From: an uncultured Bacteroidales bacterium
GTDB taxonomy: Bacteria > Bacteroidota > Bacteroidia > Bacteroidales > UBA4417
NCBI GenBank assembly: GCA_903946925.1
Contig: CAJAXK010000378.1
Span: forward strand, 1 to 59,105
Reading direction: 5' to 3'
Length of the DNA stretch: 59,105 nt
Shown here: one piece after another, positions 5,418-43,540 of the stretch
Numbering within the stretch: the first letter of the stretch is position 1
How the letters are laid out: every line of letters begins with the position of its first letter
Program-made: the position numbers and the translations under genes
The notes under the pieces: model-generated
Told to the model about the DNA's origin: nothing
Databases searched by the model: none
What the model saw: the letters and a program-made list of their open reading frames with translations, nothing else

Positions 5418-5565
5418 GAGTACACTCCGAAAAGTCTTTTTTAGCCACAAAGGCACAAAGCCTCTAAGTTTCACTAATATAAAGCTGAATAACACTTTTT
5501 TGTGAACCTTTGTGTCATAGTGCCTTAGTGGCGGTTCGTAATTTTTAGGTTATCGGAGCGGACTC
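5418..5565. repeat. Dispersed ~150-bp inverted-repeat element, copy 1
   Basis: The ends are inverted copies of each other: ACTCCGAAAAG on the left and TATCGGAGCGGACTC on the right. Inside, GCCACAAAGGCACAAAG faces CTTTGTGTCATAGTGCC followed by TTAGTGGC, so the whole element could fold as one long imperfect hairpin. Related copies are at 27357-27507, 42621-42764 and 43391-43540. No coding capacity is seen. The rest of the 424-bp gap between the GH13 and SusF-like genes holds the terminator at 5652-5686 and otherwise nothing I can identify. Confidence 0.8.
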
Positions 5566-5651
5566 AAAGAACAAAATGGAAAAAGTCACAAAAATTTAAA
5601 GCATTGTTTTTCAGCGCTTTAATAATAGCTTATTCCTGAATTAGATTTAAA

Positions 5652-5686
5652 AAAAGGGGCTGTCCCATTACGTTCCAGCCCCTTTT
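5652..5686 (-). terminator. Rho-independent terminator of the sus operon
   Basis: Perfect 11-bp arms AAAAGGGGCTG (5652-5662) and CAGCCCCTTTT (5676-5686) enclose a 13-nt loop. It lies 15 nt after the stop codon of the SusF-like gene, with a T-run on the minus strand. It should separate the sus genes from the downstream GH13 and GH65 genes. Confidence 0.85.
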
Positions 5687-5700
5687 AAAATCAAACAACT

Positions 5701-7392
5701 CTATTTTTTTCCGTTTTTGGTAACAGTACAGCGCATTGTACCATCAAGGAACAATTTAATTGTATAGTTTCCGGCTGCAGCAACTGCAATATTGGATCCA
5801 TTTGGGGTTAATGAAGTAATATCACCACCCAAGTTGTAACCCCAATCATCATTTGCCCTGAATTTGAATTCACCGGCAGTTAAATTAAGTGTTGCAGTCA
5901 TGGCTTTATTTGTTGCATCCCAGGTCATATTCTGATCCGAATCCCATCCACCTGCTGTAGCACTACCAATTACACCCCAACGGTTAGCGGTATAGGTATA
6001 TTCGTTAGGATGGCTTAGGTCTAAAGCAAAGTAGTAATCAGCAGCCATGGCAATTGGAATGTTTGATCCGCCTGCATCCAAGGTAGCATTGGCAGCAGTG
6101 CTACCATAGTTGAAGCCCCAATCATGGTTTGCCCTGAATTTGAATTCACCAACTGCGCAAGCCATTCCACCTCTCCAGGTACTTGTGGCAGGATCGAAAG
6201 CAAGGGCAGTTTCGTCGCCCCAGCCACCTGGTGAAGCTGAACCAATAACACCCCAAACTGTAGCAACTGCAGTGTATGTCAAAGCTGAAGCATCTACATT
6301 AAGTTTGTAGTATCCTGCAGGGGAAGCGAAATTTCCTCCGCTTGCATCCAATGTGCCTGGTGTTGCGCCAGCACCGTAGTTTGGCCCATCCCAATTAGGT
6401 TTGGAAGCAAATTTCCATTCGTTGTTAGCATTGGCCATATAAACATAACCTTCAAGTTTGGTAGGTGCCGAAGAAAGGCTTTTTACAATTGGTGAATTTG
6501 CAGGATCCCAATCCTTTAAGGTAGAGCCTGGATAACTTGCTGCCACGTAATTACCTGGAATATACCAAGTCATAACTGAGAGGTAAGTGGTAACTTTTAA
6601 AGTTACAACATTCGAATATTGTGGGTTTGTTCCTGGATACGCACCTTGCGTTGCACTCACCCTGAAAGTAATGTCACCGGTTGTATTTGGAGCAACACCT
6701 GCATTAATGGCAGCGTTATTCAAATCATTTACGGTAATACTTCCTACAAAAGCAGCTCCAAATTTCAAAACGGTAGGAGATGTAAAAGTACCGTCAGCTT
6801 TACCAATCTCTACCGAATATTCGAGAGGGATATTTCCGTATTCAGTAGCATTCCACTGAAAAGCAACAGCAGTCTTTGTAGCATTCTCTACTACTAAGGT
6901 TAAAGGGCCGGCTGGTAGGATTGATAAAGTAATAGGAATGATGTAAGGAGTAACAGAAACAGTAACAGAGTTGGATTTATATTGCTCGTTATTGTTGGCA
7001 TACGATGAAATGATGCGCATTTCGAGTGTATAAGGATTGCTTATGCCCCCAAAACCAAAAACAATCGCGTTGAGTTCTTTTGCAGTAAAGGAAGTGCTTA
7101 ATACTCCCTTTAATACCCTGGTAACAGGTTTTGCAAAATTCTTACCTGCAGAATCTATTTGAACAACAAACTTTTGATTTGCGGAATCGGTGGCGTAGTT
7201 AGGCCATGTCCAGTTCAAAGTAAGCGCGGTTTTGCTTGAATCTGCAATTAGAGCGGTTACCGAAGGTGAACTACTGGACAACACAACCCCGTTTCCAGTT
7301 TTATAAAGAGGTAAATCCCCTTCTTTCTGGCAAGCAGTGAAAACCATAACGATTGCCACTGTTGCTATTAAAATTTTTACTATGTTTTTCAT
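5701..7392 (-). CDS. SusE/SusF-like starch-binding outer-membrane lipoprotein
   Basis: A 563-residue lipoprotein: a hydrophobic signal ends at TAC, giving lipid Cys21. Residues about 25-270 hold two SusE-type beta-sandwich modules (ALTLNWTWPNY and AVAFQWNATEYG starts). The C-terminal half has three carbohydrate-binding-like modules. The last two begin WGVIGSA..GGW and share GEFKFRAN.DWG.N, with near-identical DNA at 5846-5874 and 6122-6150, so they look like a recent internal duplication. In the Sus paradigm such proteins bind starch on the cell surface beside SusC/SusD. It is last in the susC-D-E-F operon, 30 bp after the SusE-like gene, and is followed by a terminator. Confidence 0.88.
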   Translation of the reverse strand: MKNIVKILIATVAIVMVFTACQKEGDLPLYKTGNGVVLSSSSPSVTALIADSSKTALTLNWTWPNYATDSANQKFVVQIDSAGKNFAKPVTRVLKGVLSTSFTAKELNAIVFGFGGISNPYTLEMRIISSYANNNEQYKSNSVTVSVTPYIIPITLSILPAGPLTLVVENATKTAVAFQWNATEYGNIPLEYSVEIGKADGTFTSPTVLKFGAAFVGSITVNDLNNAAINAGVAPNTTGDITFRVSATQGAYPGTNPQYSNVVTLKVTTYLSVMTWYIPGNYVAASYPGSTLKDWDPANSPIVKSLSSAPTKLEGYVYMANANNEWKFASKPNWDGPNYGAGATPGTLDASGGNFASPAGYYKLNVDASALTYTAVATVWGVIGSASPGGWGDETALAFDPATSTWRGGMACAVGEFKFRANHDWGFNYGSTAANATLDAGGSNIPIAMAADYYFALDLSHPNEYTYTANRWGVIGSATAGGWDSDQNMTWDATNKAMTATLNLTAGEFKFRANDDWGYNLGGDITSLTPNGSNIAVAAAGNYTIKLFLDGTMRCTVTKNGKK

Positions 7393-7422
7393 AATTTACA
7401 GTTTAAGAAGAAAAGAAAGGAT

Positions 7423-8262
7423 TTACTGTTTTTCAACATAATATTTACCCAGTTGGAAATCAACGGTAACCTTGTATGTTCCGGCAGTAGCAGGGCCAGG
7501 GAATTGTGGGTCGGAATCTTTCATCTCGAAGGTACCCCCTGATACAACGCTTCCATCAAGGGCATGGTATTGCGATCCCCAAACACCCATTTTCTGAACC
7601 AGCTTATAACCGCCGCCACCTAACATATCAACAGTAAGTGTGTACAAAGTATAAACGTTAGGGTTTTGTGTAAATTTCTGGGTTACATCGTAAGGAGATG
7701 CAAGAGGGTTATTCCATCCTCCAGCAGCAGCATTGCCAACTAACCATAAAGTGCCTTCGGTAGGCACGGCCACCAATGGAGGAGGCATAAATGGGGTAGC
7801 AGTCAATTGAAGCACATTTGAGTATAAAGCACCCGAATTATTCTTCAATACTGATTTAATCCTGAACTCGAGGTTATGCGAAACGCCGGTTTTCAGAAGC
7901 ATGGTATTCGATAAATACGAATTTAATGTGCCGACTTTAAAGGTTACATTGAGGTCGCCAGTGAAGGAAACTGTCAGTTTATTTGGATTTGTAAAATTAG
8001 CACCGGTAGTGTCCACCTCAAGGTAGTAGGTAACATCCTGCGAACTTACCCCTGTAGTGAAAGTGTAGTTTGGATTAGTCCAGGAAAACGTTACACAATC
8101 TTCTTCTTTAGTGGCATCAGTCAGAACTAGGGCCGTTTTGTTTGAGTTCAATACAGGTGCCGTTCCTCCTTCAAGGTAGATCTTCTTTTCGTCTTTGCTG
8201 CACGACCAGACTACAGAAGTCAGGAGTAGGCAGAGAAACATATATTTGGTTTTCATTTTCAT
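7423..8262 (-). CDS. SusE-like outer-membrane lipoprotein
   Basis: A 279-residue lipoprotein with signal MKMKTKYMFLCLLLTSVVWS and lipid Cys21; ATG two codons in (8256) is an equally good start. Residues about 35-150 form a SusE N-terminal module (DCVTFSWTNPNYTF, YYLEVDTTGANF). A single C-terminal module starts at LWLVGNAAAGGWNNP and resembles the SusE/SusF starch-binding domain. It is shorter than the SusF-like neighbour, having one binding module instead of three. It lies between susD (24 bp) and the SusF-like gene (30 bp), so co-transcription is very likely. Inferred role: surface alpha-glucan binding. Confidence 0.85.
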   Translation of the reverse strand: MKMKTKYMFLCLLLTSVVWSCSKDEKKIYLEGGTAPVLNSNKTALVLTDATKEEDCVTFSWTNPNYTFTTGVSSQDVTYYLEVDTTGANFTNPNKLTVSFTGDLNVTFKVGTLNSYLSNTMLLKTGVSHNLEFRIKSVLKNNSGALYSNVLQLTATPFMPPPLVAVPTEGTLWLVGNAAAGGWNNPLASPYDVTQKFTQNPNVYTLYTLTVDMLGGGGYKLVQKMGVWGSQYHALDGSVVSGGTFEMKDSDPQFPGPATAGTYKVTVDFQLGKYYVEKQ

Positions 8263-8286
8263 AGTTGATTGTTTTAAAGGTCGGGA

Positions 8287-27225: not shown

Positions 27226-27267
27226 TTCTTTGGTTTTTTATGTTTTTGGGTGATAGGGAAATTTGGT

Positions 27268-27345
27268 TTTGGGATGGGGTTCAAGTGCTGGATGCCGGGT
27301 TCCGAGTGCCAAGTTCCAGGTGCTGGGTTCCAAGCTGGGTGCATT
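27268..27345. repeat. Degenerate GGGTTCCAAGTGC word array
   Basis: Imperfect tandem words of the type GGGTTCCGAGTGCC, AAGTTCCAGGTGCTG and GGTTCCAAGCTGGG fill the sequence upstream of serS. There is no coding potential and no visible promoter. Confidence 0.65.
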
Positions 27346-27356
27346 TTTTTTAGACT

Positions 27357-27507
27357 GAGTCAACTCCGACAAGTGTTTTTTCGCCACAAAGACACAAAGG
27401 TTCTAAGTTTCACTAAGTTCACTAAGTTTATAGTGCTAAATAGCAATGTTCTGTGTTCTCAGTGCCTCCGTGGTTTTCTTTTTTTTGTTTTATCGGAACG
27501 GGATCAA
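27357..27507. repeat. Dispersed ~150-bp inverted-repeat element, copy 2
   Basis: The left end is GAGTCAACTCCGACAAG and the right end TATCGGAACGGGATCAA, inverted with mismatches. Internal words GCCACAAAGACACAAAGG, TAAGTTTCACTAAG, CTGTGTTCTCAGTGCC and TCCGTGGTTTTC match copies 3 and 4. It sits 19 bp past the distal end of the rpmA terminator hairpin. Confidence 0.8.
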
Positions 27508-27525
27508 GACTGCAAAAATAAAAAA

Positions 27526-27550
27526 TCCCCTGACGTGAACGTTCAGGGGA
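27526..27550 (-). terminator. Rho-independent terminator of rplU-rpmA
   Basis: Arms TCCCCTGA (27526-27533) and TCAGGGGA (27543-27550) form a hairpin followed on the minus strand by a T-run (complement of 27519-27525). It lies 46 bp after the rpmA stop. Confidence 0.8.
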
Positions 27551-27595
27551 CTTCATTATAAGTGTGTCGAACAGCAGCATTTGCTGCCCATGCGC

Positions 27596-27859: not shown

Positions 27860-27884
27860 ATCTTTTGAATATTAGGAGTTACAA

Positions 27885-29067: not shown

Positions 29068-29071
29068 GGTT

Positions 29072-29311: not shown

Positions 29312-29332
29312 AATCGACAGGATTTATTTGGT

Positions 29333-31036: not shown

Positions 31037-31101
31037 GAAAATTGAGGTTTTGTTGCTATATACAAAACCGGAAAATTGTTGCATATAGATTTAACGTTTT
31101 T

Positions 31102-31180
31102 ACCACGGAGGCATGGAGTTCACTGAGGTCCACGGAGTAAATTCTCAGGCTTTTCTCTGTGTTCTCCATGCCTCCGTGGT
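31102..31180. repeat. Large hairpin with ACCACGGAGGCATGGAG arms
   Basis: Perfect 17-bp arms ACCACGGAGGCATGGAG (31102-31118) and CTCCATGCCTCCGTGGT (31164-31180) enclose 45 nt that can pair further (GTTCACTGAG against CTCTGTGTTC). The CTCTGTG and CCTCCGTGGT words match the right half of the dispersed element copies, so this is probably a relative. There is no T-run, so it is not a typical terminator. Nothing else is seen in 31037-31350. Confidence 0.75.
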
Positions 31181-31350
31181 TAATATTTATATTACTAAAC
31201 ATGGGATTTATCCCTTTTACAGAATAATCATTGCCAATTTAAATTCAAAAGGCCCATTTCCACATTAATATTATAATCTTTTAACGAACATGCTTTTTAA
31301 AATACTCCCAAAAAGAAAACCTTAAATGAGCCAAATAGCAACAAAAAATG

Positions 31351-31359
31351 TATCTTTGC
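31351..31359 (+). promoter_or_regulatory. Putative -7 element of fbaA
   Basis: TATCTTTGC is an exact TAnnTTTG match. It overlaps codons 2-5 of the longest open frame, which argues that translation starts downstream at ATG 31396. Confidence 0.6.
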
Positions 31360-31395
31360 AAAAAAGTTAAAACAGAAAACCTAATTCATAACAAT

Positions 31396-32475
31396 ATGTC
31401 AGACAAAGTATTACAAAGTGTTGCCGCCGGCGTTGTTACCGGGGATGACGTTCAGGAAATCTTTCGTATCGCGAAGCAGAACCATTTTGCACTTCCAGCG
31501 GTAAATGTGGTAGGAACCGATTCTATTAACGCGGTGATGCAGGCAGCCCGCGAAGTGAACTCTCCTGTAATAATACAATTCTCGAACGGGGGCGCACATT
31601 TTTTTGCAGGTAAATTCTTGGGCAACGATGGCGAAAAAGCTGCTGTTGCGGGTGCAGTTTCGGGTGCAAAACATATTCATGCCTTGGCCGAATTGTACGG
31701 AATCCCGGTATTGGTGCATACTGACCATGCTGCAAAAAAACTTTTGCCATGGATTGATGGGTTATTGATAGCAGGCGAAAAACACTTTGCCGAATTTGGA
31801 AAACCCTTGTTCAGCTCGCACATGCTCGACCTTTCGGAAGAACCGCTTCACGAAAACCTCGAAATTTGCAAGCAATACCTTACCCGTATGAGCAAAATGG
31901 GCATGACCCTCGAAATTGAGCTTGGTGTTACCGGTGGCGAAGAAGATGGCGTTGACAATTCGGATGTTGACAGTGCAAAACTTTATACCCAACCCGAAGA
32001 TGTTGCTTACGCTTATGAGGAACTGATGAAGATTAGCGACAAATTTACTATTGCAGCTTCGTTTGGCAATGTTCATGGCGTGTATAAACCTGGAAATGTG
32101 AAGCTTCAACCGGTTATCCTTAACAATTCTCAAAATTTTGTAGAAAAGAAATTCAATACTGCTTCCAAACCACTCAATTTTGTGTTCCATGGTGGGTCTG
32201 GTTCAACACAAGCCGAAATCCGCGAAGCAATTTCGTACGGTGTTGTTAAAATGAATATTGATACCGACACCCAATGGGCAACCTGGAAGGGCATTATGGA
32301 CTTTTACAAGAAAAACGAAGGCTACCTCCAGAGCCAGATTGGAAACCCTGATGGCGAGGACAAACCCAATAAAAAATACTACGACCCACGCAAATGGCTC
32401 AACGAAGCACAAAAATCGCTTATAATTCGGTTAAAAGAAGCTTTTACCGATTTGAATTGCATTGATAGGAACTAA
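31396..32475 (+). CDS. fbaA: Fructose-bisphosphate aldolase, class IIA
   Basis: A 359-residue zinc-dependent aldolase, the same length as E. coli FbaA. It cleaves fructose-1,6-bisphosphate to DHAP and glyceraldehyde-3-phosphate in glycolysis, or the reverse. Zn and substrate motifs are present: LVHTDHAAKKLLPW, SSHMLDLSEEP, GVTGGEEDGVDN, NVHGVYKPGNVKL, FHGGSGS and MNIDTDTQWA. ATG 31396 (MSDKVLQSVAAG) is chosen over 31348 because a -7 promoter element covers the upstream ATG region. A terminator follows 30 bp after the stop. Confidence 0.96.
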   Translation: MSDKVLQSVAAGVVTGDDVQEIFRIAKQNHFALPAVNVVGTDSINAVMQAAREVNSPVIIQFSNGGAHFFAGKFLGNDGEKAAVAGAVSGAKHIHALAELYGIPVLVHTDHAAKKLLPWIDGLLIAGEKHFAEFGKPLFSSHMLDLSEEPLHENLEICKQYLTRMSKMGMTLEIELGVTGGEEDGVDNSDVDSAKLYTQPEDVAYAYEELMKISDKFTIAASFGNVHGVYKPGNVKLQPVILNNSQNFVEKKFNTASKPLNFVFHGGSGSTQAEIREAISYGVVKMNIDTDTQWATWKGIMDFYKKNEGYLQSQIGNPDGEDKPNKKYYDPRKWLNEAQKSLIIRLKEAFTDLNCIDRN

Positions 32476-32504
32476 TCCTGCTTACCAACAAAGCCTGAAA
32501 AACA

Positions 32505-32532
32505 AAAAAAGCTCCGTAACTGGAGCTTTTTT
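32505..32532. terminator. Bidirectional terminator between fbaA and usp
   Basis: Arms AAAAAAGCTCC (32505-32515) and GGAGCTTTTTT (32522-32532) with a 6-nt loop. The A- and T-runs on both sides allow it to serve both convergent genes. Confidence 0.88.
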
Positions 32533-32552
32533 GCTATTGGGAGCATAGCAAA

Positions 32553-33404
32553 TTATCGTGGTGAAAGCTGCATGGTCTCGAAAGGGTTGATGCTCAGTAC
32601 AGGCAAGGGCGAATTGTTAACCATCTGCTGGGCATAAGGCCCAACCACCAAGTTGTATGGACTGGTTTCCTGCTCTGTCATAATACTTATCAGATTGGCT
32701 TTGACCTTTTTTGCATATTCTATAGTCCCGTTTGTAAGGTTATCGCAGCTCAGGGTATCGCGATGGAAAATAATACCTTCTTCTTCAAGGTATTTGCAAA
32801 CCTGGTCGGTATATTCGTCAACACGAAGTTTTATTGATTTATATTTAGATGCATAGATTGAAAGCACATAGATTTCGGCATCAAAAAGCCTAGCCAAATA
32901 TGCGGTAAAAGGGACTTTTTGGCGTGTATCGATTGTGCTGTCGATTGGCATTAAAATGTGGTTTAACGGATGGTTTGGGTTAATGCCGGCACGCAGTGTA
33001 ATTACAGGACATTTCGACATCGAAATCAGTTTATTGGCATTGCTTCCAATCCAAAATTGCTCGAACCCGGAAGAGCCGTGGGTTCCCATTACAATGCACA
33101 GGCTTTCCATTTCCTTTGCCTCATCTATTATTTCGCGGTAGGTTTTGCCTTCGCGAATAACAAAGTCAATGGTCGAATCGGGAAGCTCAGGGCTATATTT
33201 TTCAATCAGCTTGCCAAATTGGTTCCTGATTTCATCTATTAAATCGGATGAAGAATCGGAATAAATGGTTTTTTTTGTAACACTCGGGTTGTTGACCCAA
33301 ATCATGTGAACATCCAAGGTTCCATGTGAGGCAATAGAAACAGCATGTTCAAGCGCGTTTATCGAACAGTCGGAAAAATCAATCGCTGCAATAATATTGG
33401 CCAT
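32553..33404 (-). CDS. Universal stress protein, tandem UspA domains
   Basis: A 283-residue protein with two UspA domains (about 1-140 and 148-283). The first keeps the nucleotide-binding pattern G-x2-G-x9-GS in MGTHGSSGFEQFWIGSN and starts NIIAAIDFSDCSINALEHA; the second domain is more diverged. Such proteins bind ATP and are induced under growth arrest, oxygen or redox stress; no direct activity can be inferred. It is a paralogue of the gene at 34495-35334. A good promoter lies about 220 bp upstream at 33621-33654. Confidence 0.92.
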   Translation of the reverse strand: MANIIAAIDFSDCSINALEHAVSIASHGTLDVHMIWVNNPSVTKKTIYSDSSSDLIDEIRNQFGKLIEKYSPELPDSTIDFVIREGKTYREIIDEAKEMESLCIVMGTHGSSGFEQFWIGSNANKLISMSKCPVITLRAGINPNHPLNHILMPIDSTIDTRQKVPFTAYLARLFDAEIYVLSIYASKYKSIKLRVDEYTDQVCKYLEEEGIIFHRDTLSCDNLTNGTIEYAKKVKANLISIMTEQETSPYNLVVGPYAQQMVNNSPLPVLSINPFETMQLSPR

Positions 33405-33620
33405 ATACTAACTATTTTTAATGATTAACTAATTTTTTGGGGTGGCTAAGATAATGAAATTTAGCAGCCGATGCAAGTGTTTTTATTCGGTTTGTGAAAA
33501 CTATGGCGTTATTTTGCTTAAAACCGGGTAATAGAGATGGTTTTTAAACCTGCGAAAATAGTGATAAAAATATATAACAACCATTCAATCAATATGTTTG
33601 TATAATTAATTATACTAGAA

Positions 33621-33654
33621 GCAAAGATAAATGCCAGAATGAAAATTTCATCAA
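33621..33654 (-). promoter_or_regulatory. Promoter with -33 TTG and -7 TATCTTTGC
   Basis: On the minus strand TTG (33654-33652) is followed after 22 nt by TATCTTTGC (33629-33621), the best match to the full Bacteroidota promoter in the window. It points toward the usp gene at 33404, implying a leader of about 210 nt. Confidence 0.6.
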
Positions 33655-34069
33655 CAGAATTACCAAAATCCCTTTCCCCAACAAATTAAGCCATTTATTT
33701 AAACTTGTTTTGTCGTAAAAAGTATGGATTGCTATTTGCAAAATGTGCTTTTTTTTGAGCGGGGCAATCATGCCAATCGTAATTCCAACATCGTAATTAA
33801 AATAAAACTTCAGTAACTATTCACCCTATACCCGAATACCGAATAACATACCATTTTGATTGATTTAGGCTTTTAGGCTATGGGCTTTTAGGGTTTTGCT
33901 TTCCCAAAAAATATTGATTTTAATCCCAAATAACCATATTCTGATAATCCCTGACACCCAAACCCCAAATCCTAACACCTAAAAGGCAAATCCCTGAATA
34001 GTAAAAACTTCATAATATGGACAGGCTCAAATTGAGAAAATAAAAGAATGCCTGACAAATATGCAGAGG
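33655..34069. other. Intergenic region, mostly featureless
   Basis: AT-rich sequence between the usp promoter and the SPOR gene. At 33863-33897 it holds GCTTTTAGG words (the CTAAAAGCC word on the other strand) and at 33958-33982 a CCCAAACCCCAAATCC run. No gene or RNA is recognised. Confidence 0.5.
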
Positions 34070-34480
34070 TTACAGAACAATTTTGTCTTTAACAGCGAAG
34101 GAATTTGGATAACTTGACGATATCTTTTTTTGAAAACCAACAGCTTCGCTCAAGGTGCGGAAATTGCCAACACGTACACGGTAATAAGGTTCTTTGTAGG
34201 ATAAATACGATTTCATTTCAGGATTCCCCAAATCGAAATCACCTTTTGCAGAAATGGCTTTATTTTTTGAATTGCTGCCCGAATCGAAAAATATCTGAAC
34301 CCTATACCCATCAATTTCCGGGTTGTTCAAGCTCATTTTGCGGTATTGATCGGTAAGCTGGTCAATTTTTTCATCTTGCACAACTACCACCGACCCATTG
34401 GCTGGCGAAAGTTCCTGCGAATATAAACCGGAACCAAGGAAGCATAACAATAAAAGAAAGGAAAGCGAATGTTTAACCAT
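34070..34480 (-). CDS. Exported SPOR-domain protein
   Basis: A 136-residue protein with a signal peptide (MVKHSLSFLLLLCFLGSGLYS) and a C-terminal SPOR domain (about 58-136: GYRVQIFFDSGSNSKNKAI, YYRVRVGNFRTLSEAVGFQ). SPOR domains bind denuded glycan strands of peptidoglycan, often at division sites. This one is short, with only a ~35-residue linker, so it is probably a periplasmic peptidoglycan-binding factor. It starts 14 bp after the usp gene at 34495-35334, suggesting one transcript. Confidence 0.88.
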   Translation of the reverse strand: MVKHSLSFLLLLCFLGSGLYSQELSPANGSVVVVQDEKIDQLTDQYRKMSLNNPEIDGYRVQIFFDSGSNSKNKAISAKGDFDLGNPEMKSYLSYKEPYYRVRVGNFRTLSEAVGFQKKISSSYPNSFAVKDKIVL

Positions 34481-34494
34481 TTACGCAGTGATGG

Positions 34495-35334
34495 TTAGAT
34501 TGTAAAGTTGTTTTTAGGGTGAATGGTTAACACAGGCACCGGCGAATTGTTGACCAATTGCTGGGCAAACGACCCTAAAAGTATTGAATTTGCCTGGTTT
34601 TGCACATCAGTCATTATGGCTATCAAGTCGGCATCTACCATACGGGCATGTTGAATGATGTCGGCTGCCAGGTTTTCGCTGTTTATGCTGTCAACTATAT
34701 AGCTTATGCCTTTTTCGTCAAGTTGCTTTTTTGCTTTTGAAACGTTGTTGTCAACCACTTTTTGCATCGACTTGAGCCCGCTTGAGTTCAAAGCCAATAT
34801 ATTCAGATCGGCACCTGTTGATAAAGCCAATTGTGCAGCGAAAGCCAACTTTTGAATGGTGTGGGTGGAGTGGTCAACCGGTAGAAGTATTTTTCGGTAA
34901 CCGCGTTTAATATCATAATTATATTTAACGGTAACCACCGGACAAGAGGAACTGGAAACTACACGAAATGCATTCGTACCTATCCAATATTCCTCGAACC
35001 CAGATGAGCCATGGGCACCTACAACCAAAAGGCTACAATCATTTAATTTTGCATAGGTTGCAAGTTCCTGATAAACACGCCCCTTACGTACCTTAGCAGA
35101 TAGTTTGCCGTGGGTTAACTTATCTTTATACTTTGAAAGCAATTCGGCGAAATCATTTTTTGCCTCGTTGCGGAGTTCCTTGGAAGTATTGGCAAATTCC
35201 ACTTCGTTGCCGCTCAAATTATCGACCCACACCATGCTAACATTGGCATGTGAGAGGTTTGCCAACTCAATAGCATACTCAAGCGCGTGTACCGAACCTT
35301 TAGAAAAATCGATAGCAACTATTATGTCTTTCAT
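34495..35334 (-). CDS. Universal stress protein, tandem UspA domains
   Basis: A 279-residue paralogue of the usp gene at 32553-33404. ATG 35334 (MKDIIVAIDFSKGSVHALE) aligns with the start of the paralogue; an in-frame ATG 24 bp upstream would add MNINTGIN. The first domain has VGAHGSSGFEEYWIGTN, the ATP-binding pattern. The second (from about residue 148) begins RKILLPVDHSTHT and retains LLGSFAQQLVNNSPVPVL, where the motif is partly kept. It is followed at 14 bp by a SPOR-domain gene. Confidence 0.92.
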   Translation of the reverse strand: MKDIIVAIDFSKGSVHALEYAIELANLSHANVSMVWVDNLSGNEVEFANTSKELRNEAKNDFAELLSKYKDKLTHGKLSAKVRKGRVYQELATYAKLNDCSLLVVGAHGSSGFEEYWIGTNAFRVVSSSSCPVVTVKYNYDIKRGYRKILLPVDHSTHTIQKLAFAAQLALSTGADLNILALNSSGLKSMQKVVDNNVSKAKKQLDEKGISYIVDSINSENLAADIIQHARMVDADLIAIMTDVQNQANSILLGSFAQQLVNNSPVPVLTIHPKNNFTI

Positions 35335-35556
35335 GTTAATCCCGGTATTAATATTCACGGCTAAATTAATAATTTATCTTAAAATGGATTGACGAAACAC
35401 CGATATTTTCAATAAAAATTGTTTGTGTGGATTGGTTTAGGGCTATAACAGGAAACCAGGCTTCAATTTATAATAATTGATAATATATCCTGAACACCAC
35501 ACTGAATTGCAGGGGTTTTGTGCATTTGCAGTTATATAACGTTTAACCAAAGCAAG

Positions 35557-36276
35557 TTATGCCCAGCCCCTCATTTTATAATACGCTAAAGCAAAATATT
35601 CGCGTAGAACAAGAAGTTCAAATTTAAGATGATTCCAGAATTGATACCTCACTTGTAGGTTATTGCCAATTGCCGGTATATATTTATTTCCTTTAAGATC
35701 GCTGTCCTTAAAAGTAAGATCGGTTTCGAGAGCGGTTTCAAAGGTGGCCAGGCCACTAACTTGAGTAAAACCGGCTTTCCTGAAAGTTAAAACGGCGCGC
35801 TTCATGTGTTCGGGTGAAGTTATAAGTGTAACAGGCATGTTGAGTTCTGCCAAAGTTTTACCTGCACTTAGCCTTTGTGCCTGGTCGCGGGTGTTGCGGC
35901 CAAGGTTTTCGAAATGTAATCGTTCTTTATTTATCCCTCTTATTAGCAATTCCCTTGCGGTTAGGAGCGGTGCGCCCGTGCTGTCGGAAAGGTCGCCGGG
36001 AATGGAGATCATAATGTGGGCTTCTGGATTTTTCTTAGCCAAGCGGGCAGTGATAAAAGCACGCATCAAACCGCCTTCGCTCGGTATTCCGGTGCCGCTT
36101 AAAAGCACTATTGTTGTAGGTGGTTTTGTAATCCGGCTGTTGCTGGTGCCCAAACTGTAGTAGGCCCAGTAAGGCAAAGTGGTTAAAGCTATCAAACACA
36201 TAATAATAAAGAAACCACCCGAAATAAGCAGTACAGTTTTTATAACACGCAAAATCCGGTTGCCAGCTTTTTTCAT
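35557..36276 (-). CDS. YdcF/DUF218-family membrane-anchored protein
   Basis: A 239-residue protein with an N-terminal membrane anchor (TVLLISGGFFIIMCLIALTT) and a DUF218 domain: TTIVLLSGTGIPSEGGLMR, a central ENLGRNTRDQAQRLSA stretch and LITSPEHMKRAVLTFRKAG. Members such as SanA/ElyC are linked to envelope integrity and lipid-carrier or peptidoglycan metabolism, but the reaction is not settled. Both flanks are noncoding gaps of 170-220 bp with no obvious operon partner. Confidence 0.88.
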   Translation of the reverse strand: MKKAGNRILRVIKTVLLISGGFFIIMCLIALTTLPYWAYYSLGTSNSRITKPPTTIVLLSGTGIPSEGGLMRAFITARLAKKNPEAHIMISIPGDLSDSTGAPLLTARELLIRGINKERLHFENLGRNTRDQAQRLSAGKTLAELNMPVTLITSPEHMKRAVLTFRKAGFTQVSGLATFETALETDLTFKDSDLKGNKYIPAIGNNLQVRYQFWNHLKFELLVLREYFALAYYKMRGWA

Positions 36277-36446
36277 TTTATTTGTTTGTACAAACTGCCT
36301 TAGTTCTTAGTTTGGTTAAAATAATGGAAGGGATTTTGGTTTAATTGCTGTAAGTAGGTTCAGGCGCGTTTAATTGCTGTTAATTATAGGCGACATTAAC
36401 TTTATAGCAATCTTGATGTTAAACATGGATATAGAATTAAAAAAGC

Positions 36447-36953
36447 CTATTTCTTTATGATATACATTGGGGTTTGTATCACATTGCTTTTGTTTAAATC
36501 CCTGTCCTTAATATAAATCTCGAAAGCGATTGTGTCGGTTTTAAGCAAAAGGCGGGCAAAATAAAGCTCAAGCGTCATGGTAATATCACCTTTGATATTT
36601 TTGTTCCTGCCTTTGGGCGTCAGTATTGGAATACGCGAATTAAAGGTTACGCTCGAATCCACGGGCTTTACCTCAACCAACTCTTTATTATAATATTGCA
36701 TGAACTTGAGGTAGTAATTATATTTCATTGGCTCAACCGTATCCCACGAAAATAACCCAATATTTCCATCGCCATCGGTGTAGGAAATGCGTATCTCGCC
36801 AATCGAATCCTTGCCCATAACATCTCTTCCGGTAGCAAAACCGCCATATTCAATATATGGAATCCTAGGATATTGTTCTTCCTTAACACAGGCATTAAGC
36901 CCGAAAAGTATCGGGATTAGAAGTATAAAACTTATCTTTGTTAACAATTTCAT
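36447..36953 (-). CDS. Putative lipoprotein, unknown function
   Basis: A 168-residue protein with a lipoprotein signal (MKLLTKISFILLIPILFGLNAC, lipid Cys22). The body is a single predicted beta-rich domain, with IRISYTDGDGNIGLF near residue 55, a form common in small uncharacterised Bacteroidota lipoproteins, and FEIYIKDRDLNKSNVIQTP near the end. No catalytic motif is visible. It is divergent from the LuxE-like gene with 40 bp between starts, so the two may share a control region. Confidence 0.82.
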   Translation of the reverse strand: MKLLTKISFILLIPILFGLNACVKEEQYPRIPYIEYGGFATGRDVMGKDSIGEIRISYTDGDGNIGLFSWDTVEPMKYNYYLKFMQYYNKELVEVKPVDSSVTFNSRIPILTPKGRNKNIKGDITMTLELYFARLLLKTDTIAFEIYIKDRDLNKSNVIQTPMYIIKK

Positions 36954-36993
36954 TTCACGAATTTCAAAGGCATAAAATTACAAAATTTCCGGT

Positions 36994-37983
36994 ATGGACG
37001 TCATTGCTTTTAAACAACGTATTTTCGAAATGCAAAGCCTGAATGATTTCAACGAAATTGCTATCGGTTTATTTCAATACCAATACCGGAACAATGAAAT
37101 TTATCATCGGTTTGTAAATGCTTTGGGCATAAATCCTGTTGTTGTAAAGCGGACTGAACAAATCCCGTTTTTGCCGGTAAGCTTTTTCAAAACGCATAAG
37201 CTTATAAGCGGCAGTTTTTCGGAGGAAATGGTTTTCGAAAGCAGTGGCACGTCAGGCATTGAAACCAGCAAACATTATGTGGTTGATGCCGATTTGTACC
37301 AAAGAAGTTTCATGAACGGGCTAGAGCTTTTTTATGGCAATTTGTTGCAATATACCGTGTTTGCACTGCTTCCCTCCTATCTCGAACGCGGGAATTCGTC
37401 CTTGGTATATATGGTCGAAAAAATGGTTTTGAAATCGGAAAGGGCGATGGGCGGTTTCTTTCTCAACGAACTGGAGGAGTTACAAAACCAACTTGTGGAG
37501 GCAAGACGGAATGGAAAGAAAATCATGCTGATAGGGGTTACTTTTGCTTTGCTCGAAATGGCTGAAAGCTTTCCTGTTCATATTCCAGAAGCAATAATTA
37601 TTGAAACAGGAGGGATGAAAGGCCGCCGTGACGAAATTACGCGGATGGAACTTCACGAAAAATTGTGCCAAGGGTTTGGCGTAAGCAAAATCCATTCGGA
37701 ATATGGCATGACCGAACTGTTGTCGCAGGCTTGGTCTAATGGCGATGGGGTTTTCCGTTCGCCACCCTGGATGAAAATACTGATTTCCGATACCAACGAT
37801 CCTTTAAGTTACCTCCCAACAGGGCGCAGTGGAGGAATCAATATTATTGATTTGGCAAACATCCACTCATGTTCGTTCATTGCCACGCAGGATTTAGGTA
37901 GGATGTTTGCTGATGGGAGTTTTGAAGTTTTAGGCCGTTTCGATAACAGCGATATCCGCGGTTGCAGCCTTTTGGCAACTTGA
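36994..37983 (+). CDS. LuxE-like acyl-protein synthetase/acyltransferase
   Basis: A 329-residue protein of the LuxE acyl-protein synthetase family (ANL adenylating fold). The phosphate loop is FESSGTSGIETSKH near residue 82, followed by IIIETGGMKGRRDEITR, IHSEYGMTELLSQAW and a final DLGRMFADGSFEVLGRFDNS. In LuxE an acyl group is activated with ATP and transferred to an enzyme cysteine. Here no LuxC or LuxD partner is adjacent. In Bacteroidota such genes are often found alone, sometimes with O-antigen or lipid genes, and the substrate is unknown. The stop is 74 bp before the SRAP start. Confidence 0.85.
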   Translation: MDVIAFKQRIFEMQSLNDFNEIAIGLFQYQYRNNEIYHRFVNALGINPVVVKRTEQIPFLPVSFFKTHKLISGSFSEEMVFESSGTSGIETSKHYVVDADLYQRSFMNGLELFYGNLLQYTVFALLPSYLERGNSSLVYMVEKMVLKSERAMGGFFLNELEELQNQLVEARRNGKKIMLIGVTFALLEMAESFPVHIPEAIIIETGGMKGRRDEITRMELHEKLCQGFGVSKIHSEYGMTELLSQAWSNGDGVFRSPPWMKILISDTNDPLSYLPTGRSGGINIIDLANIHSCSFIATQDLGRMFADGSFEVLGRFDNSDIRGCSLLAT

Positions 37984-38024
37984 TTTTACGGTTGCAGTTC
38001 GTTATCGAGCAGCAATTTGTCCCA

Positions 38025-38056
38025 ATCCGAAATCCCCAATCCGAAATCCGAAATCC
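38025..38056. repeat. ATCCGAAATCC word run abutting the SRAP start
   Basis: CCGAAATCC words repeat up to two bases before the ATG at 38058. They are the same words as at 23848-23882, and they occupy the position where a leader or ribosome-binding region would be. Confidence 0.7.
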
Positions 38057-38057
38057 C

Positions 38058-38711
38058 ATGTGTGGCCGATTTTCACTAACATCAAACGAAGCAGAACTAA
38101 ACCTGCGCTTTGAACTCGAAGGAGGAGCTGCGCCTTATGTTCCCCGATATAATGGAGCACCAACCCAAATGATGGCTGTTATTACCAACGAAATGCCAAA
38201 CAAATTGGGCAGCCTTCGCTGGGGGTTAATTCCTCCTTGGGCAAAAGATATTTCAATTGGGAACAAAATGATCAATGCCCGTGCCGAAACCATAACCGAA
38301 AAACCTTCGTTCCGAACCCCACTGTTCAGTAGGCGTTGCTTGGTACCTGCCGATGGTTTTTACGAGTGGCAACAGGATCAAGGGAAGCAGCCTTTCAGGA
38401 TTTTTGTCAAAAGCAACCCTATCTTTGCCATGGCTGGATTGTGGGAACGGTGGAAAAGCCCGCAAGGGGAAATTGTGGATTCGTTCACCATTATAACTAC
38501 CGAAGCCAATAGTTTTATGCAGCCAATCCATAACCGTATGCCAGTAATACTAGACAGGGAAAATGAGAAAACCTGGCTTTTGAGCACTAATCCCAACGAA
38601 ATACTCCAACTATTAAAACCATATCCTACCACAGATATGGCTGCATATCCGGTTACCAAATTGGTAAATTCGCCAAGAAATCAAGGACCGGACGTTTTGG
38701 CGAAAATGTAA
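38058..38711 (+). CDS. SOS response-associated peptidase (SRAP, YedK/HMCES)
   Basis: A 217-residue SRAP protein. ATG 38058 is certain because catalytic Cys2 (MCGRFSL) must follow the initiator Met; the open frame extends 32 codons upstream only because of the repeat. Also visible are INARAET (Asn), DGFYEWQ (Glu) and IHNRMPVIL (His), matching the active-site residues of YedK. It traps abasic sites in single-stranded DNA as a stable DNA-protein crosslink. No SOS box is evident. The ElbB gene follows 53 bp downstream. Confidence 0.95.
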   Translation: MCGRFSLTSNEAELNLRFELEGGAAPYVPRYNGAPTQMMAVITNEMPNKLGSLRWGLIPPWAKDISIGNKMINARAETITEKPSFRTPLFSRRCLVPADGFYEWQQDQGKQPFRIFVKSNPIFAMAGLWERWKSPQGEIVDSFTIITTEANSFMQPIHNRMPVILDRENEKTWLLSTNPNEILQLLKPYPTTDMAAYPVTKLVNSPRNQGPDVLAKM

Positions 38712-38764
38712 TTGTGATATACCCATATTTATGTACTTTTATGCTCTTGAAAAAACAAATAGCC

Positions 38765-39415
38765 ATGAAGAAATTTGCAATTGTTTTAGCTGGTTGCGGC
38801 GTTTATGATGGTGCCGAAATACATGAGGCCGTTATGAGCATGTATGCAGTGATAAAAAATGGAGGCGAATACAAGTTGTTTGCACCCGATATTGCCCAAC
38901 ACCATGTGATAAACCATCTTACTGGGGCCGAAATGCCCGAATCGCGCAATGTGCTGGTTGAAAGTGCCCGTATCGCGCGTGGTAAAATTCAAGCCATTAC
39001 CGACCTCGACTTACGTGATTTTGATGCGCTTCTGTTTCCCGGAGGGTTTGGGGTGGCCAAGAATTTGTGTTCGTATGCGTTTAAAGGTGCTGACTGCGAA
39101 GTGCATCCCCAAGTTGGTAAAATTATCCGCGATGCGCTTAGCCTTCGGAAACCCATTGGTGCTTTGTGCATTTCACCGGTTCTGCTTGCCAAAATTTTGG
39201 GCGACGTTACTATTACTGTTGGCCCTGATGAAGGCGATGCCGTTAATGTTAAAGAAATGGGTGCAAATCATATAGTTACAAAACCCGGCGATGTGATTAT
39301 TGATAAAAAACACAGGGTATTTACCACTCCTTGCTACCAGCTTGATTCAAACATTGGGCAAATTGCCGAAGGCACCGATAATATTGTGAAGGAAATGTTG
39401 AAAAGTATGGAGTAA
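38765..39415 (+). CDS. elbB: Isoprenoid biosynthesis glyoxalase ElbB (DJ-1/PfpI family)
   Basis: A 216-residue class I glutamine-amidotransferase-like protein. ATG 38765 gives the standard ElbB start KKFAIVLAGCGVYDGAEIHE; the open frame begins 51 bp earlier. FPGGFGVAKNLCSYAF and GALCISPVLLAK carry the nucleophile-elbow Cys. ElbB was linked to isoprenoid synthesis and shows glyoxalase activity in E. coli, with no settled physiological role. A strong terminator follows at 39480-39508. Confidence 0.93.
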   Translation: MKKFAIVLAGCGVYDGAEIHEAVMSMYAVIKNGGEYKLFAPDIAQHHVINHLTGAEMPESRNVLVESARIARGKIQAITDLDLRDFDALLFPGGFGVAKNLCSYAFKGADCEVHPQVGKIIRDALSLRKPIGALCISPVLLAKILGDVTITVGPDEGDAVNVKEMGANHIVTKPGDVIIDKKHRVFTTPCYQLDSNIGQIAEGTDNIVKEMLKSME

Positions 39416-39479
39416 GAATGCAAATTGCAAATTCTGAAAAACAAGATAAAGAAGGTCTCGGGTTGCCTATCAAGTAAAC

Positions 39480-39508
39480 AAAAAAGACATCTTTTGGATG
39501 TCTTTTTT
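39480..39508. terminator. Bidirectional terminator between elbB and tnaA
   Basis: Perfect 12-bp arms AAAAAAGACATC (39480-39491) and GATGTCTTTTTT (39497-39508) with a 5-nt loop serve the convergent elbB and tryptophanase genes. Confidence 0.92.
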
Positions 39509-39617
39509 GCTTTGGAATATTTATAAATATCAAATTGTGTAGTTTTCTGTCAAAGAAAATACCAATTATGCTTTCTATTGCCATTTCCACATAGGAGCAA
39601 ATTAGGAAGCGGCTTTT

Positions 39618-40994
39618 CTATATCTTCCTCAATTTTACTGTAAAATGCCGCAAAATAGGAGCTTCCTGTTCAATGGCAAGTCCGGTTGTTATTTGGTTCC
39701 TGCGTTCGTAAACATTCCCCATGGCAACTGCCACATAGTTTATATGGTCGTTGGTATAAGTCCGGCGGGGAATGGCTAAACGCAACAATTCAAGTTCAGG
39801 GTAGCGATTTTCGCGTGTTACAGGATTGCGGTCGGCCATAATTGCGCCTATTTCAACACCTCTTACACCGGATTCAATATACAATTCAACGGCTAATGTT
39901 TGCGCCCTGAAATGTTCTTTTGGTAAATGCGAAAGTACTTTGCTTGCATCAACAAAAATAGCATGACCGCCATAAGGTTGCTGAACCGGAACACCAAAAG
40001 CGGTGAGTTTGCTGCCAAGCAAAGCAACTTGCCCAACCCGCGATTTGAGGTAATCGAAATCGGTTGCTTCGTACAAACCTTGTGCAATGGCATTCAGATC
40101 GCGGCCTGCAAGTCCACCATAAGTCAAATAGCCCTCGAACATGATGTTGAACACGGAAGCTTGCCTGAAAAGTTCGGGGTCGCGCAAAGCAATAAAACCA
40201 CCTATATTAACGATTGCATCTTTTTTGCTGCTCATGGTCATGCCATCGGAATATGAAAACATTTCGGCCACAATTTCGCGGATGCTCCGGTCTTGTTGTC
40301 CGGCTTCCCTGGTTTTGATAAAATATGCATTTTCGGCAAAACGGGCCGAGTCGAAAATCACCGGGATAGTATATTTTTCGGCCAGTTGTTTAACGGCCTT
40401 GAGGTTGGCCATTGAAACGGGCTGTCCTCCTGACGAATTGCAGGTAACGGTAACAATTATCATTGGAACCTGCTCCCGGGGATGTTTTTTTAGAACATCT
40501 TCAAGCTTTCCGAGGTCAAGGTTGCCCTTGAAGGGATGATCGATTGTGGTATCGAATGCTTCATCAATGGTGCAATCAATAGCTTTAGCTTTACGGAATT
40601 CGATATGGCCTTTAGTTGTGTCGAAATGCGAATTTCCTGGAACCAAATTGCCCTCCTTCACCATCACGCTAAACAACACATTTTCAGCAGCACGGCCTTG
40701 GTGAGTGGGCAAAAAATATTCGAAACCAAGCAAATCCTTAATAGCTGCCTGTAATTTATAAAAGGAAGAGGCACCGGCGTAACTTTCGTCGCCGAGCATC
40801 ATTTCGCTCCATTGCTTGTCGCTCATGGCACCGGTTCCCGAATCGGTGAGCAAGTCGATAAATACCTGATCGCTGCGCAGGTTGAAAAGATTGTAACCGG
40901 CATTTTTGATCCATTGTTCGCGTTGCTCGCGGGTGCTGCAACGAATGGTTTCCACCATTTTTATTCTGTAAGGTTCTGCAAAGGGTAATTCCAT
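39618..40994 (-). CDS. tnaA: Tryptophanase
   Basis: A 458-residue PLP beta-eliminating lyase, close to the length of E. coli TnaA. It cleaves tryptophan to indole, pyruvate and ammonia. The PLP lysine is K258 in MSSKKDAIV. The choice of tryptophanase over tyrosine phenol-lyase rests on VEIG in the specificity loop near the C-terminus, where tyrosine phenol-lyases have MERG with the substrate-binding Arg, and on TnaA-like FDTTKGH and ILRHFTVKL. No tnaC-like leader or permease is seen, so regulation is unknown. It ends 110 bp from the terminator at 39480-39508. Confidence 0.92.
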   Translation of the reverse strand: MELPFAEPYRIKMVETIRCSTREQREQWIKNAGYNLFNLRSDQVFIDLLTDSGTGAMSDKQWSEMMLGDESYAGASSFYKLQAAIKDLLGFEYFLPTHQGRAAENVLFSVMVKEGNLVPGNSHFDTTKGHIEFRKAKAIDCTIDEAFDTTIDHPFKGNLDLGKLEDVLKKHPREQVPMIIVTVTCNSSGGQPVSMANLKAVKQLAEKYTIPVIFDSARFAENAYFIKTREAGQQDRSIREIVAEMFSYSDGMTMSSKKDAIVNIGGFIALRDPELFRQASVFNIMFEGYLTYGGLAGRDLNAIAQGLYEATDFDYLKSRVGQVALLGSKLTAFGVPVQQPYGGHAIFVDASKVLSHLPKEHFRAQTLAVELYIESGVRGVEIGAIMADRNPVTRENRYPELELLRLAIPRRTYTNDHINYVAVAMGNVYERRNQITTGLAIEQEAPILRHFTVKLRKI

Positions 40995-41169
40995 TGGTAT
41001 AAATTTTTAAAGGGTTAAATTAATAAACTGAAAATCAATATGAAAACGAATTCTCAAATTCATCCCTTCTCTTTATGTTCCTGAAAATGCACTTCTTAAA
41101 ACCCAACATATTGCCTCGGATATTGCTATTAAAGTGAGGCGTCAAATATACATTATTTTGTTGCATTAC

Positions 41170-42600
41170 ATGAAAAAGCGAACTTTGTACAAAATTATTT
41201 TCAAAACTCTCATTCAACCAGGTGGTATGGCAAGGTTATTTTCGGTAAGTGTTTCGTTTTTATTGGCTATCTTGATTCTAAACTCCTGTTTTTCGGTGGA
41301 AAAAAGTGATGCTCAGGAGTTTGAAATTGGTAAAGTATATCCCAAAATTTGTTGTGCTGCCGATTCCAGCCAATCTTACGCCTTGTTTTTACCATCAAAT
41401 TATGATAAAAATACACCTTGTCCGGTATTGGTTTTGTTCGATTCGCATGGCGATGGTTTGTTGCCGGTGAATCTTTTCAGCAACGATGCATCAAAAAGTG
41501 GTTTTATCGTCGCGGGATCGAACAATTCGAAAAATGGAATGACGTTGGAGGAAACCACGGCAATTTATCGCAATGTATTGGCCGACCTTACTTCAAGGTT
41601 TACTATCGAAAAAAAGGCAATTTACCTGGGTGGTTTTTCGGGTGGGTCGCGCGTTGCGGCGGCGGCGGCTATAACCGAAGGCGGTGTAGCAGGGGTTGTT
41701 GGCTGTGGTGCAGGCCTACCAAACCTGAACCAAAAACCTCAAACTCCATTCAGTTATCTGGCAGTGGTTGGCAACCAGGATTTTAACCTCACCGAAATGA
41801 TGCAGCTCGACGAATCCCTTGAAAAAGCCGGGTATCAGCATCATCTTTTACTTTTTGATGGCATTCACCAATGGCCGCCTAAAGAGTTGATTCCGGATAT
41901 TTTTACCTGGCTTAGGTTTGATGCCATGCGGCAAAAGTCAATACCAGAAAACAGGTCGGATATTAACCTCTTTATTGAGCAAAACGATAAAAAGGCCAAT
42001 GATTTAGCCTCCAAAATCAAGTTTCCTGAACAACAGGAAATTTATCAAAAAATGGTTCATTACCTCAATGGATTAACGGATGTTTCCCCTTTATTGAACG
42101 AAATTGAACGGCTCGAAAATGAAACTTCAGTGGTTGCCTTTCATCAGCAGAAGAAGGATTTGAAAGAAATGGAACAAGCGCTTCAACAAAAATATTTGCC
42201 CGAAATTGAGCAGAAGGATGTTAATTGGTGGAAAAAGGAAACTGCAAAGCTGTTCAGCCTTGCCGAAAACCCAAAAAATCCTGAAACGGGAGCCGTGTAT
42301 AAACGATTGTTAGGCTCGCTAAGCCTGAGTTGTTATATGTATTCCAATGCCGCATTGAAACAGGGAAATCTGGCTTTAGCTTCCAAACATATCGAAATAT
42401 ATAGCCTTGTTGACCCTTCCAATGCCGAACACCGATATATGGCAGCCAAAGTAGCTGCGCTTAATGGCAATAGCGATGAGGTTTTTACCGCCTTAAACCA
42501 AGCTTTGGAATTGGGTTTTTTAGATTATAGCCGTTTAGATTCTGATTTTTCAGCCTATCGAAATGATAAAAGGTTTAAATGTCTTCAATTGGTCAGGTGA
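41170..42600 (+). CDS. Putative alpha/beta-hydrolase esterase with C-terminal helical/TPR domain
   Basis: About 476 residues from ATG 41170; ATG 41227 is an alternative that keeps the signal (FLLAILILNSC, possible lipoprotein). Residues about 55-275 form an alpha/beta-hydrolase domain of the PHB-depolymerase/esterase type: PCPVLVLFDSHGDG, nucleophile elbow GGFSGGSRV and the likely catalytic His in FDGIHQWPP. The rest is helical, with LALASKHIEIYSLVDPSNAEH and DEVFTALNQALELGFLDY resembling TPRs. It is probably an exported hydrolase; the substrate is unknown. Confidence 0.78.
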   Translation: MKKRTLYKIIFKTLIQPGGMARLFSVSVSFLLAILILNSCFSVEKSDAQEFEIGKVYPKICCAADSSQSYALFLPSNYDKNTPCPVLVLFDSHGDGLLPVNLFSNDASKSGFIVAGSNNSKNGMTLEETTAIYRNVLADLTSRFTIEKKAIYLGGFSGGSRVAAAAAITEGGVAGVVGCGAGLPNLNQKPQTPFSYLAVVGNQDFNLTEMMQLDESLEKAGYQHHLLLFDGIHQWPPKELIPDIFTWLRFDAMRQKSIPENRSDINLFIEQNDKKANDLASKIKFPEQQEIYQKMVHYLNGLTDVSPLLNEIERLENETSVVAFHQQKKDLKEMEQALQQKYLPEIEQKDVNWWKKETAKLFSLAENPKNPETGAVYKRLLGSLSLSCYMYSNAALKQGNLALASKHIEIYSLVDPSNAEHRYMAAKVAALNGNSDEVFTALNQALELGFLDYSRLDSDFSAYRNDKRFKCLQLVR

Positions 42601-42620
42601 TTGTTATAAGCCTGTAATAA

Positions 42621-42764
42621 TTGAGTCCACTCCGACAAGTCTTTTTTCGCCACAAAGGCACTAAGTCTCTAAGTTTCACAAAGTTTATAGTGTTGATTAA
42701 CAATACTCTGTGTCCTCCAGGTCTACGTGATTTTCTCTTTTTTAGGGTTATCGGAGCGGATTCA
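42621..42764. repeat. Dispersed ~150-bp inverted-repeat element, copy 3
   Basis: The left end is TTGAGTCCACTCCGACAAG and the right end TTATCGGAGCGGATTCA, nearly perfect inverted repeats. Internal GCCACAAAGGCACTAAG, AGTTTATAGTG and ACTCTGTGTCCTCCAGG match copies 2 and 4. It lies 21 bp after the esterase-TPR stop and is in direct orientation with copy 4 on the other side of the DUF1761 gene. Confidence 0.88.
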
Positions 42765-42850
42765 TAATTAGAGTTTTCAAAACAAACAAAACCGTATAGA
42801 CGTTGTTAACTACTATCAATCAAATCAATAACAACTTAAAAAATGAATTT

Positions 42851-43258
42851 ATGGATTTTTCTACCCTGAACTGGCTGGCTATTTTAGTTTCAGCACTCGC
42901 ATTTTTTGGACTTGGCGGCATTTGGTATTCAAAGGCTGTGTTTGGTAAAATCTGGATGTCGGAAACCGGCATAACCGAAGAAACAGCTAAAAAAGCCAAT
43001 ATGGCTAAAGTAATGGGCCTGACTTTGCTGTTTTCCTTTATCATGGCCATAAATCTGGCCTTATTTATGAATTCCCCCGAAATTGGTGCAACCGAAGGTG
43101 CCATGTATGGTTTTTTTACCGGTTTTGGTTGGGTTGCAATGTCAATTTTTGTAACCGGCCAATATGAATTCCGCAGCATACGGTATATGCTTATACATGC
43201 AGGGTATAATACTGTTGGGCTTACTATAATGGGATTGATATTGGGGGCTTGGAAGTAA
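42851..43258 (+). CDS. DUF1761-family membrane protein
   Basis: A 135-residue membrane protein with four predicted helices. ATG 42851 (MDFSTLNWLAILVSALAF) is the natural start; the frame opens 48 bp earlier without protein-like sequence. GGIWYSKAVFGKIWM, YGFFTGFGWVAMS and YMLIHAGYNTVGLTIMGLI are family features. Function is unknown. The gene stands alone, bracketed 87 bp upstream and 133 bp downstream by direct copies of the dispersed inverted-repeat element. Confidence 0.88.
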   Translation: MDFSTLNWLAILVSALAFFGLGGIWYSKAVFGKIWMSETGITEETAKKANMAKVMGLTLLFSFIMAINLALFMNSPEIGATEGAMYGFFTGFGWVAMSIFVTGQYEFRSIRYMLIHAGYNTVGLTIMGLILGAWK

Positions 43259-43390
43259 GAGGTGGTTTGAAATTGTGATTTGAGGGATTGTTGAAATTGC
43301 CACAGCTTTCGGGATAGTAGCATTTTACTGGGTAATTGCTATTACCTAAAGGGCAAGAACTTTCACGTTACCCTCAAAAAAAGTGTAACT

Positions 43391-43540
43391 TTGAATCCAC
43401 TCCGAAAAGTCTTTTTACGCCACAAAGGCACTAAATCTCAAAGTTCCAATAAGTTTATAGTGCTGATTAACAACACTCTGTGTACCTCTGTGTCCTCTGT
43501 GCCTCCATGTTTTTTTTTAGGGTTTTCGGAGCGGACTCAA
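43391..43540. repeat. Dispersed ~150-bp inverted-repeat element, copy 4
   Basis: The best-preserved copy. The left end TTGAATCCACTCCGAAAAG and right end TTTTCGGAGCGGACTCAA are inverted repeats with two mismatches over about 17 bp. Internal words match copy 3. It ends 13 bp from the tatD stop codon. Confidence 0.9.

Follow-up and report, generated by a model that had tools for sequence, protein, structure and literature searches.

What is the repeat of about 150 bp that recurs four times in 59,105 nucleotides of DNA from an uncultured Bacteroidales bacterium (this whole stretch is the window of our analysis), and which enzyme could have spread it? A sequence-only reading had offered two answers, a MITE or a REP/hairpin RNA family. 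We now consider it very probable that the repeat is a non-autonomous MITE of about 150 bp, mobilised in trans by an IS1182-like DDE transposase at the target ANNNNT. Copy number, ends, 6-bp duplications, an orthologous empty site and insertion sequences (IS) sharing both ends and target all support the first answer. The family is real and abundant, and its partner IS group is convincing; its kind is ordinary.

Four copies in the window

The ends of the element read GAGTCCRCTCCGA...TCGGAGYGGACTC. A 28-base pattern made of the left end and part of the interior, with up to three mismatches, occurs at four sites of the window (mean of 0.00 in 100 shuffles of the window), and these are the four dispersed copies with inverted ends of the sequence-only reading, all confirmed. 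The 15-base end motif at the same tolerance gives seven sites, each the end of one of these copies, with 0.75 expected in shuffles and no shuffle reaching 7; the eighth end, at the left of copy 1, has diverged further and escapes this motif. Bounds were set by the 6-bp target duplication, which leaves copy 1 as first drawn and corrects copies 2, 3 and 4: the TT first placed at the start of copies 3 and 4 is part of the target site, not of the element.

5412..5417, no strand: target-site duplication, copy 1 left, AAAGAA
5418..5565, plus strand: MITE copy 1, 148 bp, interior class B; missing at the orthologous site of the sister species G002
5566..5571, no strand: target-site duplication, copy 1 right, AAAGAA
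27357..27505, plus strand: MITE copy 2, 149 bp, class A interior; flanks TAGACT / AAGACT, 5/6 agree
42617..42622, no strand: target-site duplication, copy 3 left, ATAATT
42623..42763, plus strand: MITE copy 3, 141 bp, interior nearer class A
42764..42769, no strand: target-site duplication, copy 3 right, ATAATT
43393..43538, plus strand: MITE copy 4, 146 bp, class A interior; flanks AACTTT / AACCTA, 4/6 agree

The surroundings of the copies are less uniform than first described. Among ORFs of at least 100 aa, copies 1 to 3 do lie between codirectional genes, whereas copy 4 sits between convergent ORFs (42803-43258, plus; 43553-44323, minus). Likewise, the supposed lack of coding capacity holds for copies 1, 3 and 4, which overlap no ORF of at least 100 aa; copy 2 is spanned by a 103-aa open frame with a GTG start (27250-27561, plus), which we take for chance. 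The terminators placed near copies 1 and 2 can be seen by eye as palindromes, GGGGCTG..CAGCCCC at some 90 bp past copy 1 and CCCCTGA..TCAGGGG at some 21 bp past copy 2, but neither is listed by a terminator scan with a loop limit of 8 bases, which gives a different site near copy 1 (5375-5362, minus) and none near copy 2. As the palindrome near copy 1 is kept in a relative without the element, it belongs to the host gene, and the terminator link of copy 1 is host context.

Folding of the copies bears on the hairpin half of the original proposal, taken here as a family of structured RNAs (small RNAs or 3' structures of mRNAs) whose usefulness would explain its spread. The minus-strand RNA of copy 4 folds far more stably than its shuffles (z -6.4; plus strand, z -2.2) and copy 1 outdoes its shuffles on either strand (z -2.9 and -4.0), but the plus-strand RNA of copy 2 is no better than shuffles (z +0.8) and that of copy 3 only weakly so (z -1.9; 9 of 200 shuffles as good). 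Folded as DNA, copy 1 alone stands out, and near-palindromic MITEs give a hairpin anyway. Rfam yields no match at gathering score in the window. Across 46 oriented copies, in sets of 26 and 20, compensatory stem changes are at shuffle level or slightly above: paired columns show no clear excess of double changes over shuffles, and the strongest of eight covariation cases (4 against a mean of 1.4) is reached by 10 of 300 shuffles. With neither a known family nor a clear compensatory excess, and with only some copies folding clearly better than shuffles, an RNA family is very unlikely, and annotators should not read the repeat as a regulatory RNA.

Copy number, target site and an empty site

The source genome is a draft of 6.17 Mb in 498 contigs. 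The end motif with at most one mismatch occurs 192 times forward and 177 times in reverse (369 in total; reversed control 1 + 0), and the interior motif with at most three mismatches 111 + 111 times (222; control 0 + 0), from which we estimate roughly 200 copies. The family is thus abundant genome-wide rather than limited to a handful of copies, and it would fill about 0.5% of the genome if 200 copies of 150 bp are assumed. As befits a MITE, it is short, gene-free and numerous: the 33 end pairs scored in this genome span 137-232 bp, most of them about 150.

Terminal repeats are conserved as well. When sites were sampled through their interior (40 stretches, 41 scored sites, one stretch being counted on both strands), both 13-bp ends were present within three mismatches at 29/41 sites, the left end at 35 and the right end at 34. 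This sample includes 11 longer elements of 174-226 bp with extra inserts, seen by eye. Also by eye, the longer variants at L212, L214, L217, L225, L228 and L240 carry a nested CGGCARGCTCA-type insert, and an insert of about 50 bp lies in the left arm at L221, L224, L236, L238 and L245 as well as at L217, L225, L228 and L240. The smallest form seen, a 62-bp minimal element at L079:3001-3062, has its ends almost back to back and an exact 6-bp duplication. Within the 150-bp class, 46 copies have a median pairwise identity of 77%, a median nearest neighbour of 91% and a closest pair of 98%, rough figures computed with 11 of the 46 not yet turned to a common orientation; the spread of the family is mostly not recent.

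Target-site duplications were sought and found. With shuffled pairings of flanks as control, exact 6-bp duplications occur in 14 of 33 scored pairs of this genome (shuffled mean 1.07, maximum 6), in 12/31 from relatives (mean 0.70, maximum 4) and in 11/29 of the interior-drawn sample (mean 0.70, maximum 6); the pair lists are automatic and include a few doubtful pairs, such as two with a common right end in L030. No other length from 3 to 10 bp rose above the maximum of its shuffles. A 5-bp duplication, our first reading by eye, was rejected when counting gave 6 bp. The consensus of the duplications in MITEs is ANNNNT, the first base being A in 38/39 and the last T in 37/39. In the window, the 6-bp duplications are exact at copies 1 and 3, while the flanks of copies 2 and 4 match at 5/6 and 4/6 positions.

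In the sister species G002, the orthologous site lacks copy 1, an empty site of the kind that had been called for. There, the two genes that flank copy 1 are still together on a single contig (84% and 74% identity), and the gap between the conserved flanks is 95 bp, compared with 249 bp in the window; subtracting 154 bp for the element and one duplication from 249 gives the same 95, an equality that is partly luck because the bases immediately left of the insertion align poorly. The site holds a single AAAGAA, and the alignment score is 345 with the element removed and 304.5 with it kept. Copies 3 and 4 yielded no empty site, since their neighbours do not stand together in the genus relatives searched, where no conserved synteny was seen.

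The 6-bp duplication weighs on the REP half of the original proposal too, read here as the spreading of a REP-like element by a host Y1 (HUH, RAYT) transposase; no target duplications are known for Y1 enzymes. The genome does contain five Y1 transposase matches, and at L035 the Y1 ORF lies 12 bp beyond a MITE copy. However, this is the only one of the five loci with the end motif nearby, and each of the five has different inverted repeats near its gene, on both sides at L031, L034 and L035 and on one side at L032 and L033; no Y1 gene in this genome bears GAGTCC ends. A REP/RAYT system would show a Y1 gene flanked by the same repeat and no target duplication; here the Y1 genes carry other repeats and duplications are present, which makes this origin extremely unlikely. 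Distinct inverted repeats of their own, as at L031-L035, are expected of REP systems.

A probable partner group of insertion sequences

Nineteen of 119 genomes, the source genome included, hold the exact end motif. Among 40 stretches examined around exact hits, L057 has two ends 1.3 kb apart around a truncated transposase ORF with a DUF772 domain. Searches with this transposase, then with a full-length relative, matched 4/119 genomes at 1e-10 and 14/393 at 1e-20, and full IS copies were found in several genomes. All four genomes matching the first transposase fall within the 19 with the exact end motif. Within the genus, the gene is present in one of 16 genomes (the source genome included), that of G011, an uncultured Bacteroidales bin (contig CAIXAQ010000892.1).

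The candidate partner enzyme, a DDE transposase, has about 550-580 aa and carries a DUF772 domain at its N-terminus. In an alignment of eight proteins (553-579 aa), D162, D356 and E462 are invariant and are taken for the putative catalytic triad. For three transposases tested, the best NCBIfam match is NF033551 transpos_IS1182 at 114, 104 and 81 bits, together with Pfam DUF772; as the curated cut-off is 270 bits, we regard the enzyme as a distant relative and name it IS1182-like only. A PDB search by sequence gave no match, and a plasmid collection gave three records, all archaeal, at about 26% identity.

Among named genomes, a scan turned up 139 relatives, and 77 loci were retained, mostly from Bacteroidales and other Bacteroidota. 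A few come from bins labelled Cloacimonadota, Spirochaetales, Treponema, Firmicutes groups, Ignavibacteria or Deltaproteobacteria, and some bins outside Bacteroidota may be contamination. The search for a transposase with matching ends thus succeeded in relatives: 56 of the 77 loci have both ends within four mismatches of the motif (reversed motif 0), as expected if the MITE shares its ends with an autonomous IS, and 75 have at least one (reversed motif 2, single-end, same flanks). Of the 21 without both ends, 13 have less than 150 bp on one side. At the 56 loci with both ends, the IS are 1330-2053 bp long, with a median of 1859. Exact 6-bp duplications flank 19 of the 48 IS with usable flanks (shuffled mean 0.96, maximum 6), starting with A in 19/19 and ending with T in 18/19; exact 7-bp duplications flank 2/48 (shuffled mean 0.06), and at 32/56 both-end loci no duplication of 4-9 bp was seen.

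Subterminal positions were compared too. Over positions 14-25, none of the 11 close IS agrees with the left and right ends of the MITE and one agrees with them swapped; among all 56 IS, one agrees and four do when swapped. When the range is cut to positions 14-20, a choice made after the fact, 10 of the 11 close IS agree, and among all 56 there are 17 in agreement and 2 swapped; the right-end word used here, TAACCCT, is not the commonest (copies read AAACC in 21/46 and TAACC in 13/46). We consider subterminal asymmetry weak evidence for a tie between IS and MITE.

The sequence-only reading had called the mobilising enzyme unknown. There is now a strong candidate, and we infer from shared ends and target that the IS1182-like transposase moves these MITEs. 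It would recognise the GAGTCCRCTCCGA ends plus a few bases, act in trans on the MITE and insert it at ANNNNT, so that 6 bp are duplicated; the interior, a hairpin-like repeat not derived from the IS body, would be carried along and need have no function. No transposase of this group was found in the source genome as assembled in 498 contigs, which makes its MITEs orphans within this assembly, and movement in trans is not seen there. Draft assemblies of this type often lose multi-copy IS, and the enzyme presumably arrived on an IS since lost from, or unassembled in, this genome. A DUF772 pseudogene of the source genome (L090) was rejected as partner, having no ends within four mismatches.

The first transposase also has no match in 15 of the 19 genomes holding the end motif, which, with the lack of a match in the source assembly, would suit a MITE moved by another enzyme that shares ends and target by chance. 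Against such a coincidence, two separate sets share ends of at least 13 bp, the same 6-bp duplication length and an A....T target, and we judge it highly improbable.

Interior module and relation to known systems

We compared the interiors of 84 elements from 10 genomes that passed a filter on ends and length. Those of G000, G002 and G011, all of the window's genus, largely match one another; those of G000 match the single interior of G041 in 95% of pairs, those of G067 in 37% and those of G091 in 26%, so that one interior type extends across several families. Common descent could equally explain this recurrence. The genus interiors have no match in G065, G084, G098 or G105, and some other families of the order have the same end shell with quite different interiors. 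Only 2 of the 84 match IS bodies, and weakly. Judged by such comparisons, the interior is not a visible IS remnant and differs between some lineages. Elements at L053:2886-3016 (G104) and L056:2886-3016 (G065) have GAGTCC ends and an interior with the word CATTGCGAGG, which we take to be a common dispersed repeat.

Copies of the module GCCACAAAGGCAC..GTGCCTTTGTGGC that lack the ends are also present in the genus, both in arrays and on the two sides of a GxxExxY (PDDEXK_3) gene in inverted orientation; 11 interior-matching stretches from G001, G003, G005, G007, G008 and G013 have no end pair within three mismatches. At L253:361-935, a GxxExxY gene (TIGR04256, 122 bits) lies between inverted module copies, and by eye similar open frames adjoin the module at L258 and L260. 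In the source genome, hairpin words lie near three of the five PF13366 loci. GxxExxY (PF13366) genes were rejected as the autonomous form of the MITE: four of the five loci have no end motif within three mismatches, and the fifth (L040) has one, more than 1.3 kb from the gene.

GxxExxY (PF13366/TIGR04256) genes or look-alikes stand near CACAAAG/CACAGAG-type hairpin words at L039:1195-1905, L038, L040, L253, L258 and L260; the words are inverted or tandem, and MITE ends are lacking around these genes. Such genes and words together may constitute a separate small mobile unit. On the basis of the module found without ends and beside GxxExxY genes, we tentatively suggest that the MITEs are chimeras, an IS1182-like end shell around an independently spreading hairpin module, a possibility we rate somewhat below even. 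If true, one transposase would repeatedly capture a locally abundant hairpin, giving a simple route to studying how MITEs acquire an interior that their IS did not supply.

As far as literature searches reach, the family is new as a named one: among titles and the starts of abstracts, with subscription journals thinly covered, we found no paper on these ends or on an IS1182-linked MITE of Bacteroidales. An abundant Bacteroidales repeat thereby gains a name and a likely enzyme.

Bacterial MITEs are short elements with terminal inverted repeats in common with an IS, target duplications and high copy number. The present family resembles them in size, in ends common with an IS, in duplications (14/33 exact at 6 bp, with both terminal repeats at 29/41 sites) and in copy number; it differs in an interior that seems no visible IS remnant and varies between some lineages. 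With REP/RAYT systems it shares dispersed intergenic palindromes, but it has target duplications, and the Y1 genes of the genome come with other repeats. The tie to the IS1182 family lies in NF033551 as top match and in the DUF772 domain of the partner transposases, the scores of which stay below the cut-off. The IS1182-family member IS1272 is reported to replace stem-loops and not to make the usual duplication (PMC5678879), whereas the partner IS and the MITEs described here duplicate 6 bp.
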